DNA of 64,000 bases from Chthoniobacteraceae bacterium (GTDB taxonomy: Bacteria > Verrucomicrobiota > Verrucomicrobiia > Chthoniobacterales > Chthoniobacteraceae): NCBI GenBank assembly GCA_028293625.1, contig JAQGOL010000030.1, forward strand, positions 310,001 to 374,000, written 5' to 3'. The notes under the pieces are model-generated. The model was not told where the DNA came from and ran no database searches. It saw only the letters and a list, made by a program, of their open reading frames with translations. Of the stretch, positions 10,055 through 52,156 are shown one piece after another (the stretch's first letter is position 1; the number at the start of each line of letters is the position of its first letter). A program made the position numbers and the translations under genes.

Positions 10055-10942
10055 CTAAATCCCCACCTTCGTCACCCGCCCAAGCAGCTTGCCCACCATG
10101 GGAGTTTCCGTTCGGAGACTCGAAATTTCCACGGCTGCGCGCTCCTCGATCCGGGCCGGATCGCCGGCCAGCGCTGCCGCCAGATCCTTCACGGAATCAT
10201 CAAGGCGCCCCCCCATTTCAATCATCGCCCTCGATAGGGAAACAAAACCGGGCACCTGATCAGCGCCGCTTTTGCGCAATTCGTAGAACGTGGCGAACTC
10301 GTGACTGATTTGGGCGAGTTGAATGACAGCGCGAAGGCGTTCGATGGAAGCATCGTAAACGGGTAGTTTTGTGTCTCCGAGCGTGAACAGTGGCGGGGCG
10401 ACCCGAAGATTTGTTGCATCTTTCTGATACAACCGAGCGTTCCTGGCCAATGTCTCCAGGCTGGCATTCAATGTGGCGAAATGGAGAACGGCTCCGTGAA
10501 TGGCATCCCAGAAGGCTCCGTACTGGCCGCTCACGAGGGCTTGCTCGGCGAAATCCAGGGCGCGCCCGGCTTCAGTCACCAGAGCAGGCAAACCGGCCGC
10601 CATCTCCCGCGAAGTTTCCAGCCTCCGATGCAGAATGCTCTCCAAGCCGCGCTGATCGGCATGGATTTGCGACTGCTCACGCAAAAGACGTTGCACTTCC
10701 GCGCGTTTCGCCTCGCGGCGACGCTTGGACTGCCTCACCGCATGTTCGCAATTTGCTTCAATGGAAGTCCACGCTTTGCGGCCGGCTACGGCCCCCGCCC
10801 CGAGCAGAACCAATCCGGCCACCACCCCCGCGTTGCGATAATCGAACGAGACCTTATCGACCAGAAAAGTCGCGATGAAAAACGTGGCAATCCAGATCAC
10901 GATTGCGACCAGGACACCGCTTAAAAAGCCAAGAAATTTCAT
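10055..10942 (-). CDS. Hypothetical two-TM protein with coiled-coil domain
   Basis: This is a 295-residue protein. It has two N-terminal membrane helices (FLSGVLVAIVIWIATFFIATFLV and AGVVAGLVLLGAGAVAG), then a strongly basic and helical stretch (VRQSKRRREAKRAEVQRLLREQ) and a long alpha-helical cytoplasmic region. No enzymatic motif is seen. It converges on the methyltransferase gene with 19 bp between stops and no obvious terminator. The family is unknown to me. Confidence 0.7.
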   Translation of the reverse strand: MKFLGFLSGVLVAIVIWIATFFIATFLVDKVSFDYRNAGVVAGLVLLGAGAVAGRKAWTSIEANCEHAVRQSKRRREAKRAEVQRLLREQSQIHADQRGLESILHRRLETSREMAAGLPALVTEAGRALDFAEQALVSGQYGAFWDAIHGAVLHFATLNASLETLARNARLYQKDATNLRVAPPLFTLGDTKLPVYDASIERLRAVIQLAQISHEFATFYELRKSGADQVPGFVSLSRAMIEMGGRLDDSVKDLAAALAGDPARIEERAAVEISSLRTETPMVGKLLGRVTKVGI

Positions 10943-11563
10943 AATGTTGCTGGTAATAGCAATCTACGCGCCGCAAGGGTTGCTCGGAGCGTCGTGAAAT
11001 GCTCGTATTTAATTTGTGACAGGCGGGCAATCCCGACACGCGGCTGCCGGTGTGCGCGGCAAATTACTCGCGCTTAAACCCCGTGCGCAATCTGCTTTTG
11101 AGCTGCCTGCAGCAAAAAATCGCATCCGCGGCGTGGAACAGGAGTAAACGCACTCTTCCTAATGGTCCGCCCCGATGCCTCAGTCATGGTGGCTCCCCGC
11201 CTTTTGCGCTTATCAGAGCGGCACAAACCGGTTACCACTCGTCCTTGTCAGACACTTCAATCGGCGGTTCCCCAATCCGCCAACAAGATGACGAACTGAC
11301 TGCCTCTCATCGCTCTACATAAACCATTACCGAAAAATCGTTAACTATTTTATGATTAGAGTGATACAGAAAATAAAAATTACACACTCATCTCAGATAA
11401 AAGATCCGAATGAGTTGCACACGGCAGATCCAAACCAAAAACCGCCCATCCGGACGGAAATAAATTTAAAATTTCCGAGCATCAATTTTTAATAAGGTGA
11501 TATCAGGCTTTCGAAACGAACAAACGCTTGTCTGCTGCCATTGATCGGCATGAAAGCCAAACA
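10943..11563. other. Gene-free stretch before the hairpin repeats
   Basis: About 620 bp hold no convincing gene. One 90-codon frame at 11050-11322 on the plus strand has a composition unlike neighbouring proteins. An AT-rich segment at about 11325-11400 could hold promoters. No CIRCE element, tRNA or terminator was seen. Confidence 0.5.
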
Positions 11564-11623
11564 ACTTTGCCAGGGGTGGTAGAATGAGGGGGCGGGCCTG
11601 GGCGTCCAGCCCGCCCCTCTCAT
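11564..11623 (+). repeat. Tandem hairpin unit, copy 1 of 3
   Basis: The unit starts with a constant block containing TTTGCCAGGGGTGGTAGAAT, which runs into a GC-rich hairpin. The main stem is GGGGCGGG against CCCGCCCC. An upper stem CTGG/CCAG is closed by loop GCGT. One unpaired pyrimidine lies between the two stems on the 5' side. A lower TGA/TCA helix is separated by a bulged C on the 3' side. The arms end in CTCTCAT. Confidence 0.85.
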
Positions 11624-11634
11624 CCACAGAAAAT

Positions 11635-11693
11635 ACTTTGCCAGGGGTGGTAGAATGAAGGGGCGGTCTGGGTCCTCCAGCCGCCCCTCTCAT
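11635..11693 (+). repeat. Tandem hairpin unit, copy 2 of 3
   Basis: The constant 5' block is the same as in copy 1. The main stem is one pair shorter (GGGGCGG/CCGCCCC). The upper stem CTGG/CCAG has loop GTCCT. The unpaired pyrimidine is T here, and the 3' bulged C is kept. It starts 71 bp after copy 1. Confidence 0.85.
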
Positions 11694-11718
11694 CCACTCA
11701 GGCGCTGAAAAAGCAGAC

Positions 11719-11780
11719 ACTTTGCCAGGGGTGGTAGAATGAAAGGGCGGGTCCGGATATCTCCGGCCCGCCCTTCTCAT
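11719..11780 (+). repeat. Tandem hairpin unit, copy 3 of 3
   Basis: The constant block is identical. The stem reads AGGGCGGG against CCCGCCCT and the upper stem CCGG against CCGG, so changes on one arm are matched on the other. The loop is ATATCT, and both bulges are retained. It starts 84 bp after copy 2 and ends 138 bp before the clpB start. A small CGCTAT-TCCG-ATAGCG hairpin (11796-11811) and a CGACA-TTT-TGTCG repeat (11842-11854) follow. Confidence 0.85.
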
Positions 11781-11918
11781 TTTCAGGAGAAGCCTCGCTA
11801 TTCCGATAGCGTCAAACCGGCGCGGCAAAACAGATAAAGAGCGACATTTTGTCGTCTTCTTTCTAATTTCTCTCTCCATCCGCAAGGCAGATTTCCTGCT
11901 TGGGTGCGAAACCTCCCT

Positions 11919-14492
11919 ATGAAGATTGACCGATTCACCCAAAAAATGCAGGAGGCTCTCCAGGCTTCTCAGGATGTTGCGGCCGAGCGGCAGCAACAGG
12001 AAATCACCAACGAGCACTTTCTTTTGGCATTGCTTGTTCAAAGCGAAGGATTGACGCGGCCGCTTCTCGAAAAGCTCGGTGTCTCGACCAGCGCGCTCAA
12101 TCAACGAATCGAGGAGCTGCTTGCCCGGCGCGCCAAGGTGCAGGGAAGCGGTCTGCAGGCCAATCTCGGCAGCGAATTGCGCGATGTCCTCGATCGCGCC
12201 GAAAAAGAGATGGCCGCAATGAAGGATGAATTCCTGAGTGCGGAACATTATCTCCTGGCACTCGCCGATTCCAAATACGACGCAGGCAAACTTCTCCAGG
12301 CAAGCGGAGTCACAAAGGCCCGTTTAATGCAGGCGCTCCAGCAGGTGCGCGGTTCGCAGCGCGTGACCGATCAAAACCCCGAAGGCAAATACCAGACCCT
12401 TGAAAAATACGGGCGCGATCTGACCGAAGCCGCACGGCGTGGAAAAATTGACCCGGTCATCGGACGCGACAACGAAATCCGGCGTGTCATGCAGGTGCTC
12501 TCCCGGCGCACCAAAAACAATCCGGTGCTCATCGGCGAACCCGGCACGGGTAAAACCGCGATTGTCGAAGGGCTCGCCCGGCGGATTGTCTCGGGCGACG
12601 TGCCTGAATCGCTCAAGAACAAAAAAATCATCGCCATGGATATCGGCTCGATGATTGCGGGTGCGAAGTTTCGCGGTGAATTTGAGGACCGGCTGAAAGC
12701 GTTTCTTAAAGAAGTGACCGATTCCCAGGGGGAGATCATCCTTTTTATCGACGAGCTTCACACCATTGTCGGCGCGGGTGCCAGCGAGGGGGCGGTGGAT
12801 GCTTCCAACATGTTGAAACCGCAGCTGGCCCGTGGCGAACTGCGCACCATCGGCGCAACCACGCTTGATGAATACCGCAAATACATTGAGAAAGACGCCG
12901 CCCTGGAGCGCCGGTTCCAACCCGTCACTGTCGATGAACCGAGTGTCGAGGATACCATCGCCATTCTCCGCGGACTTAAAGAACGCTATGAAGTGCATCA
13001 CGGCGTGCGGATTCAGGATGCCGCGCTCGTGGCCGCCGCGATGCTCTCCCATCGTTATATCAGCGACCGGTTTCTTCCCGATAAAGCCGTTGATCTGGTC
13101 GATGAAGCCGCTTCGCGCCTCAAGATTGAGCTCGAATCGTTGCCAACCGAAATCGACGTATTGGAACGCGAAATCATGCAGCTTGAAATGGAGCGGCAGG
13201 CGCTGAAAAAAGAAAAGGATGCCGCCAGCAAGGAGCGGCTTTCAAAGATCGAGCGCGATCTGGCCGACCTGCGCGAGAAATCGTCGCAACTCAAAGCCCA
13301 ATGGCAGAGTGAAAAAAGCGAGATCGATAAATCGCGCAAGCTGGCTGAAGAACTTGACCAGCTTCGGACTGAACTTGCGCAGGCCCAACGCCGCGGGGAA
13401 CTCGGCAAGGCGAGTGAAATCCAGTACGGGCTTATTCCCGAGGTGCAACGCCAGCTGGATGCGCACAATCGCCAGCTCAGCGAGGTCCAGCACGGCGCCC
13501 AAATGCTCAAGGAAGAGGTCACCGAGGAAGATATCGCCCGGGTGGTGAGCGCCTGGACCGGCATCCCGGTCAATCGCATGCTCGAAGCGGAACGCGAAAA
13601 ATTGATCCAGATGGACGAACGTCTCGGGGCCCGGGTGATCGGTCAGAAAAAGGCGATCGCCGCGGTCAGCAATGCGGTGCGGCGGGCGCGGGCAGGGTTG
13701 CAGGACGAAAACCGCCCGATCGGTTCCTTCATTTTCCTCGGACCGACCGGCGTGGGGAAAACCGAGCTCAGCCGCGCGCTGGCCGAGTTTCTCTTTGACG
13801 ATGAGCACGCCATGATCCGCATCGACATGAGCGAATACATGGAAAAACATTCCGTGGCGCGGCTGCTCGGGGCGCCTCCCGGCTACGTTGGCTTTGAGGA
13901 AGGCGGCCAGCTCAGCGAAGCGGTGCGCCGCAAGCCATACAGCGTCGTATTATTTGATGAGATTGAAAAAGCGCATCCCGACGTATTCAACGTGCTCCTG
14001 CAAGTACTTGACGACGGCCGGATTACGGATGGACAAGGCCGCACTGTCAATTTCAAGAACACCGTGGTGATCATGACCTCCAACCTTGGCGGCCAGTACA
14101 TTACCGAGACAAATAATGTCGAACAACGCGAGGCCATGGTTATGGACGCTTTGCGCGCCCATTTCCGGCCGGAGTTTCTCAATCGCATCGATGACATCAT
14201 CATGTTTGATCGACTCACCGAAGCCGACCTGACGCGCATCGTGGATATCCAGATTGAGAAGCTCACCAAGCGGCTCGCTTCCCAAAAACTGACGCTTCTG
14301 CTCAGTGACACGGCAAAAATCCATCTCGGACGCGAGGGCTACGATCCCGTTTACGGGGCGCGGCCCTTAAAGCGAGTGATTCAGCGTCAACTGCTTGATC
14401 CCCTGAGTCTGGAAATTCTCGCGGGCCGCTTTACCGAAGGGGGCACCATTCACGTTGATGAGCAGGATGGAAAACTGAGTTTCTCGCGGTGA
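11919..14492 (+). CDS. clpB: Disaggregase ClpB (Hsp100)
   Basis: This 857-residue AAA+ chaperone threads aggregated proteins through a hexameric ring together with DnaK. The N-domain has Clp repeats (about 1-145). NBD1 carries Walker A GEPGTGKT near residue 206. The regulatory coiled-coil M domain spans about 400-530 (rich in K/E/R, e.g. [19 protein letters not shown]). NBD2 carries Walker A GPTGVGKT near residue 608 and the pore loop GYVGFEEGG. The start is the ATG at 11919 ([14 protein letters not shown]); the frame also allows a GTG at 11904. No CIRCE element was found upstream. The three-hairpin array is the only obvious candidate control element. Confidence 0.97.
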
Positions 14493-51543: not shown

Positions 51544-51777
51544 GGGAAAAATAAGGGGTGGTGAAAGGTTCCGGGAACGCAGCCGAAACAGGCCACGCAA
51601 AGAGTCGGTAAAACCGGGAGAGCATTTAAAGATGCACGGAAATCCGGTAGCCGAAAGAGAGAGCAGAACACACGCCAGCTCTTATCCGCGCGAATCGCCC
51701 GCGCATCAATCCCCGTTTCCTCGCATTTTGGGGCATTCCATGGTGCCACCCTCGCCGGGGTTCTGTTTTGAAAAAGC

Positions 51778-52156
51778 TGGACCTGCCGGGAATCGAACCC
51801 GGGTCTCAAAAAATCTACCTCGAACTTCTACATGCTTAGTCCCTCCCTGGATTTAGGGGTTGTGCAAGAGTGGGACAAAAATACCCACAACCCCGATTCT
51901 CTTTCCCAGAAACGCTGGGTTGAGAAGGTAACCGCTTTTACCTGCTGTTACCCTCCGACTAGCAGGCGTCTATCGGAGGGGCGAACATGACTGCAATTAA
52001 GCGGCCATGGCGAGTTCGCCGCCTGTGAAGGCGTCGGTCGCGTCAACAATGTTGTTGGCTTTTGATTTTTGCCCCTGTTGATAAAGCGGAACAATGGGCG
52101 TCCGCTGCATGCGGTCCTAAAGGAAACGATCTTCTGATCGAAACCAAGTCAGGCCC
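51778..52156 (-). ncRNA. ssrA: Transfer-messenger RNA (tmRNA)
   Basis: The 379-nt RNA reads on the minus strand. The 5' end GGGCCTGACTTGGTTTCGAT pairs with the 3' acceptor CAGGTCC plus discriminator A. The T-arm CCGGG-TTCGATT-CCCGG is perfect. CCA is not encoded. The tag frame at about 52057 downward reads ANNIVDATDAFTGGELAMAA then TAA, ending in the hydrophobic AA degradation signal. Pseudoknot-type complementary stretches (e.g. GGGGTTGTG with CACAACCCC) fit. It rescues stalled ribosomes. Confidence 0.93.

Follow-up and report, generated by a model that had tools for sequence, protein, structure and literature searches.

Control of clpB is usually described at the level of the promoter, through heat-shock sigma factors or repressors. 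RNA thermometers of the ROSE/FourU kind have a structure in which the ribosome-binding site or the start codon is paired. Tandem arrangements of structured leader RNA are exemplified by the triple-tandem c-di-GMP riboswitch of B. thuringiensis (PMC4759541), and IbpA represses itself through the 5' UTR of its own mRNA (PMC10474464). The locus considered here, an array of repeats upstream of clpB in a 64,000-nucleotide window of a Chthoniobacteraceae genome, resembles riboswitch and protein-binding leaders in that conserved structured units, with both invariant and covarying parts, are lined up in tandem and in sense ahead of a single gene. Unlike the known leader classes, it matches none of them, has no recognised ligand or expression platform and is restricted to a genus. 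With the IbpA system (PMC10474464) it shares a chaperone gene whose own leader RNA is the proposed control point; however, the gene and the phylum are different and the binder is only hypothetical.

A repeat search confirmed the three tandem units claimed in an earlier note on this DNA: they are direct repeats of roughly 60 nt each, at 11566-11623, 11637-11693 and 11721-11780 of the forward strand, with start-to-start spacings of 71 and 84. Each unit comprises an invariant block (P1) followed in the sequence without any gap by a GC-rich hairpin (P2). The sequence TTTGCCAGGGGTGGTAGA opens every unit and is identical in all three; folded alone it gives UUUGCCA-GGGG-UGGUAGA, a 7-bp hairpin with a GGGG loop, and the block retains 5 of these 7 P1 pairs when the whole of unit 3 is folded. 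The letters of TTTGCCAGGGGTGGTAGAAT are likewise the same in the three window copies, and a 17-nt core allowed up to 3 mismatches has 3 matches in the window against 0.07 expected from shuffles. P2 starts from a lower stem AUGA/UCAU, above which a C bulges from the 3' arm. The main stem, built around GGGCGG/CCGCCC, has 8-9 pairs; a pyrimidine bulged on the 5' side separates it from an upper stem of four pairs, which carries a 4- to 6-nt loop. In unit 1 (block 11566-11583, P2 11584-11623) the 5' and 3' bulges are both C and the loop is GCGT; in unit 2 (block 11637-11654, P2 11655-11693) P2 is shorter than the others by one entire G-C pair and has the loop GTCCT; in unit 3 (block 11721-11738, P2 11739-11780) the stems are of the AGGGCGG/CCGCCCT and CCGG/CCGG variants and the loop is ATATCT. 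The earlier description was thus accurate for the window copies with respect to the stem variants, i.e. (G/A)GGGCGG against CCGCCC(C/T) and CTGG/CCAG against CCGG/CCGG, the two bulges (a 5' pyrimidine where the main stem meets the upper one, and a C in the 3' lower arm), the loop lengths of 4, 5 and 6 nt and the distance of 138 nt from the end of the array at 11780 to the ATG at 11919. That ATG, where the aligned homologues begin, was taken as the start of clpB (11919-14492, forward strand), the mechanical ORF opening at a GTG at 11904; the gene was identified by homologue search and by its Pfam domains Clp_N, AAA, AAA_2 and ClpB_D2-small. The next long ORF upstream in the window, of 295 aa, is divergent and has no Pfam match.

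Relatives of the unit were sought with covariance models built from the three window copies only (R1), from five copies (R2) and from six copies (R3); the E-values of these models are rough, and each search scores only the top candidates of a first look, e.g. the best 130 of 1992 in the window's own genome. Beyond the window, R1 searched against 40 family genomes recovered single copies in two of them, namely G002:C61:5873-5939 (55.9 bits, E 2.7e-9) and G001:C38:16570-16638 (48.4 bits, E 1.0e-7). Both genomes belong to the genus of the window, and both copies lie directly 5' of clpB in the sense orientation, the match ending 143 nt (G002) and 124 nt (G001) before the clpB ATG. In the alignment of the three genomes the 16-nt core is identical at 16/16 positions in every pair, the P2 identities by pair are 34/46, 30/47 and 31/48, and the stretch from P2 to just past the ATG is poorly alignable, with identities of 59/138, 29/116 and 60/128. 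Downstream of the unit, in what corresponds to the remainder of the putative leader (11781-11918 of the window, forward strand), no word of 7 nt or more is common to the window's genome (G000), G001 and G002. The upstream genes differ between the genomes, and BLASTP shows no relationship between them in the two pairs that were compared; since these neighbors are unrelated while clpB stays, the link of the element is with clpB. A relaxed 18-mer pattern, picked after the G001 and G002 copies and the probable copy on contig C25 (see below) were known, matched 8 genome contigs, with the hairpin present only in L043, labelled as a Chthoniobacter flavus MAG, whose element sequence is that of G001.

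A clpB match is present in 38 of the 40 family genomes, and reading 30 of the clpB upstream regions revealed the element in three genomes only, with R2 finding nothing more at the remaining 27 loci. A fourth genome of the genus, G003, has a clpB gene (N-terminal region of the protein 77% identical to that of the window, with 76% for G002), but model searches and the reading of its clpB upstream region recovered no unit near it or elsewhere; therefore clpB can do without the element. Within the window's own genome (6.83 Mb) the block occurs in 3 exact copies and in one with 3 mismatches of 20. The search of Verrucomicrobiota genomes for which the earlier note had called yielded strong relatives only 5' of clpB, in sense and with the pairing kept. 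Of the three options offered there, the comparison strengthens that of a clpB leader, whereas a genome-wide mobile repeat fares poorly with three copies and one probable further copy in 6.83 Mb.

Folds of the single units have z-scores of -4.0, -3.9 and -5.8 for units 1 to 3, and in no case was any of 200 shuffles as stable. In an alignment of the five clpB copies, made to fit the structure and with the upper stem of copy 2 out of register, 96.4% of the cells are paired and 5 P2 pairs are changed on both sides, against 0-1 double-changed pairs when the partner is slid by 1-3 columns as a control. The observed values were reached by 3/500 shuffles for the covariation score, 3/500 for cells paired, 10/500 for pairs changed on both sides and 21/500 for such cells; the number of further pair types, reached by 113/500, is ordinary. 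The foot of the main stem is G-U, A-U or G-C in these copies, the next pair goes from G-C to A-U, and the upper stems read CUGG/CCAG, CCGG/CCGG, UUGG/CCGG and UCGA/UCGA. All five copies retain the 5' bulged pyrimidine next to the upper stem; the 3' bulge is a C in three and is read as a U in the other two, where the energy model leaves no bulge. Over the same copies P2 varies but the 16-nt core does not; P1 pairs without any double-sided change and thus rests on energy and one U-G/U-A alternation. The earlier proposal of a selected structure is hence sustained for P2, whose pairing appears to be kept by paired changes, with modest support from 5 covarying pairs in five sure copies from three genomes.

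Folding energies also differ between the strands. With the C25 copy included as the sixth, the sense-strand block has a folding energy of -5.8 to -6.8 kcal/mol versus -1.1 in antisense, and the whole unit one of -33.7 to -40.9 versus -23.4 to -37.6; the clpB-sense strand is the stronger RNA folder in 6/6 copies, most strongly in the block. It folds better because its G-U pairs become A-C on the opposite strand. This modelled asymmetry favours an RNA read from the clpB strand, although mismatches of the opposite kind also exist, in the lower stem of G002.

The probable sixth copy, C25:7815-7882 of the window's own genome, has the 16-nt core with one mismatch followed by a 14-pair hairpin and does not lie beside clpB. 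Scored by models made without it, it is borderline (R1 E 0.26; R2 E 0.011). As a control, the core was matched with at most one mismatch in 14 of 382 class-sample genomes outside the genus, and the chance odds of one such match in a genome of this size are about 6%, as estimated from genome sizes. Three one-mismatch block matches were found among 57 relatives, with hairpins of -15.3 to -24.7 kcal/mol after them; taking these together with the 14 of the class control and 7 relaxed-pattern contigs, the hairpins after 24 chance block matches range from -3.0 to -24.7 kcal/mol. The C25 hairpin, at -27.6 kcal/mol, falls in the range of the clpB copies (-27.2 to -33.5), with a small margin over the chance matches. 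It is thus probably a real copy of the unit, and its position away from clpB means that the clpB link is not absolute. Adding it to the alignment, again fitted, raises the pairs changed on both sides to 11, with 0/500 shuffles reaching the observed value on each of five measures. The contig (L011, 12 kb) is phage-like and codes for a terminase small subunit, IrrE-like, Mrr-like and non-specific endonuclease proteins and a transposase-like fragment; given this gene content, the unit may have travelled with a mobile element, or the contig might be misbinned. Read on the other strand, the C25 hairpin precedes a T-run and could be a terminator. A tRNA reading on C25 did not hold up.

Wider searches detected no further clear copy. 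As stated earlier for named RNA families in general, none in Rfam 15 accounts for the element: the best sub-threshold match over 11000-12400 scores 20.7 bits against a gathering threshold of 58.7, and at gathering thresholds the window and the loci L011, L028 and L029 gave no element match, only a tmRNA elsewhere in the window. This tmRNA (51775-52156, reverse strand; RF00023, 115.2 bits) was not reported by ARAGORN. Under stricter filters, R2 over 213 genomes of the order added only two terminators without the block and no clear copy, and 387 genomes of the phylum likewise gave no clear copy, the weak R1 hairpin hits being at chance level. The weak hits were judged by reading, G431 and the remaining weak rows lying outside those read; hits in the family (G022, G017, G007, G033, G019, G021, G031, G003, G014, G028 and G011) and in the phylum (eight with R1; G250, G093, G228 and G102 with R3) proved to be hairpins without the block. 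A loose likeness to the block in G274 (5 mismatches of 16) has an E of 0.011 per genome, which over 387 genomes is at chance level. The hit of R3 in G140 (38.7 bits, E 2.2e-5) has a block-like 5' flank with 1 mismatch of 16, but this likeness is probably due to chance and not to distant kinship, the hit belonging to a family of palindromic repeats in that genome; its sister copies, in the 0.8 of 5.73 Mb covered, are without the full block, the flank of L157 being partly similar. That repeat, GCGAGGGGGCG...CGCCCCCTCGC on G140:C1, folds at -38.5 to -52.1 kcal/mol (loci L125, L131, L137 and L157) and is present at no fewer than 11 sites within 0.8 Mb, eight of which fall in one 20-kb stretch. Another palindromic family was observed in the window's own genome, where a 161-aa Y1-transposase ORF (G000:C14:118494-118826, locus L012) is accompanied by repeats of the GGCACCCCTGCCGGGGTGC type and is likely to be a RAYT with its REPs. 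No exact match to the 22-mer was present in genome and viral contigs (a set that may omit the window's own genome), none to the relaxed 18-mer in viral contigs and none to the element in plasmid and phage records. Among open-licence papers, nothing was found that joins clpB, leader RNA and Verrucomicrobia, and the literature matches listed contain no description of the element itself.

A scan of 10900-12000 yielded no sigma-70 type promoter, so that transcription might start downstream of the element. Neither sigma32-like sites nor CIRCE turned up when the final 420 nt of the 30 clpB upstream regions were scanned for such patterns. There is no T-run after P2 in the window, and the 4 terminator-like sites detected over 10900-12000 all fall outside the array. 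When 11530-11920 is folded as one leader, the P1 probabilities of units 1 to 3 are 0.55, 0.03 and 0.004, respectively, with units 2 and 3 using the block in other pairings; given these low values in units 2 and 3, the P1 hairpin in the intact leader is uncertain.

An invariant block joined to a hairpin conserved in shape, placed in sense ahead of a single gene, is what a leader-RNA binding site looks like. The reading to which we give a probability of about one half is that the units constitute a cis-acting RNA element of the clpB 5' leader, confined to one genus and triplicated here, with the block bound by a trans-acting factor. Under this proposal, the array would be transcribed together with clpB, and the factor, either a protein or a C-rich small RNA, would recognise the block as P1. 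P2 might then serve both as a scaffold holding the block in place and as a barrier that slows the polymerase or ribonucleases. Binding of the factor would set the read-through or the lifetime of the clpB message, and three copies may give a steeper response.

Other readings share parts of this evidence. That the units are separate small RNA genes, or one precursor, acting in trans and near clpB by synteny only, is doubtful: an invariant block with a scaffold hairpin would suit a small RNA with its seed, tandem copies of small RNAs exist, and the C25 copy is not next to clpB, but none of the three window units has a terminator-like site, and it is clpB that stays constant as the upstream neighbors change. 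The block might alternatively act as DNA, with TTGCCA-GGGG-TGGTAA as an imperfect dyad for a dimeric regulator of clpB and P2 as a cruciform or by-product. Its 6-4-6 near-palindrome is of the right form, and with no promoter placed it may precede the start site. However, its GGGG centre is identical in 6/6 copies, which is unusual for the spacer of a dimer site, its G-U pairs would be mismatches in DNA, with one of them kept in 6/6 blocks, P2 changes in pairs, and the scans for heat-shock sites were empty; we regard this possibility as unlikely. Quite improbable is a mobile hairpin of the REP/MITE type, inserted ahead of clpB in an ancestral genome and then retained or multiplied on the spot. 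Such an origin would be in keeping with the GTAG directly 5' of the imperfect hairpin P2 in the three window copies, as in the GTAG-tagged REPs (PMC3733652), with six Y1-transposase matches in the genome and with the mobile-looking contig of the C25 copy. Unlike those REPs, the units are few (3-4 in the 6.83-Mb genome and a single one in each of G001 and G002), direct rather than opposed, linked to one gene and tagged by GTAA in G001, G002 and C25. In single-unit folds the GTAG of the window copies falls inside P1. The block is also absent near all six Y1 matches, the best likeness in those loci having at least 9 mismatches of 22, and the best match, on C14, has different palindromes of its own, repeats having been read at 4 of the 6 loci.

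The hairpin could also be considered by itself, as a terminator or insulator against upstream transcription with the block as a mere flank. The G002 match starts 3 nt past the stop of a co-directional upstream ORF, the tails of P2 are pyrimidine-rich, and three relatives from one other genus have terminators that share GGGCGGG/CCCGCCC; yet those terminators have a T-run and lack the block, whereas P2 in the window has no T-run, the upstream ORF here points away, and the invariant 16-nt core is left unexplained, making this role very improbable. Comparison with RNA thermometers raises the question of a switch at the start site, whereby the block of the nearest unit would pair before the clpB ATG and control ribosome access, with P1 as the competing state. 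In the fold of 11530-11920, GGGGUGGU of unit 3 (11728-11735) does pair almost always with ACCUCCCU (11911-11918), although the units end well short of the ATG. This pairing is no better than that of shuffled letters, the best duplex between block and start region being equalled in 103, 360 and 233 of 500 shuffles for G000, G002 and G001, respectively, and it is not kept in the relatives. Start-site masking is thus less likely than a factor-binding leader, and the switch has at best an outside chance. A more specific form of control through the clpB leader, which we consider a long shot, is autoregulation: the GGGG hairpins would be bound by ClpB or by one of its partners, for instance a small heat-shock protein, and the triple array would allow the disaggregase to rise sharply when aggregates titrate the binder away.

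Structured leader RNA as such is a known kind of regulator; the element, its host gene and its triplication appear to be new. If the cis-acting reading of the clpB units is true, the leader RNA would add an extra RNA layer to the control of the disaggregase in these bacteria. The occurrence of one-copy and three-copy versions within one genus offers a natural comparison, in which the effect of dosage is directly testable.
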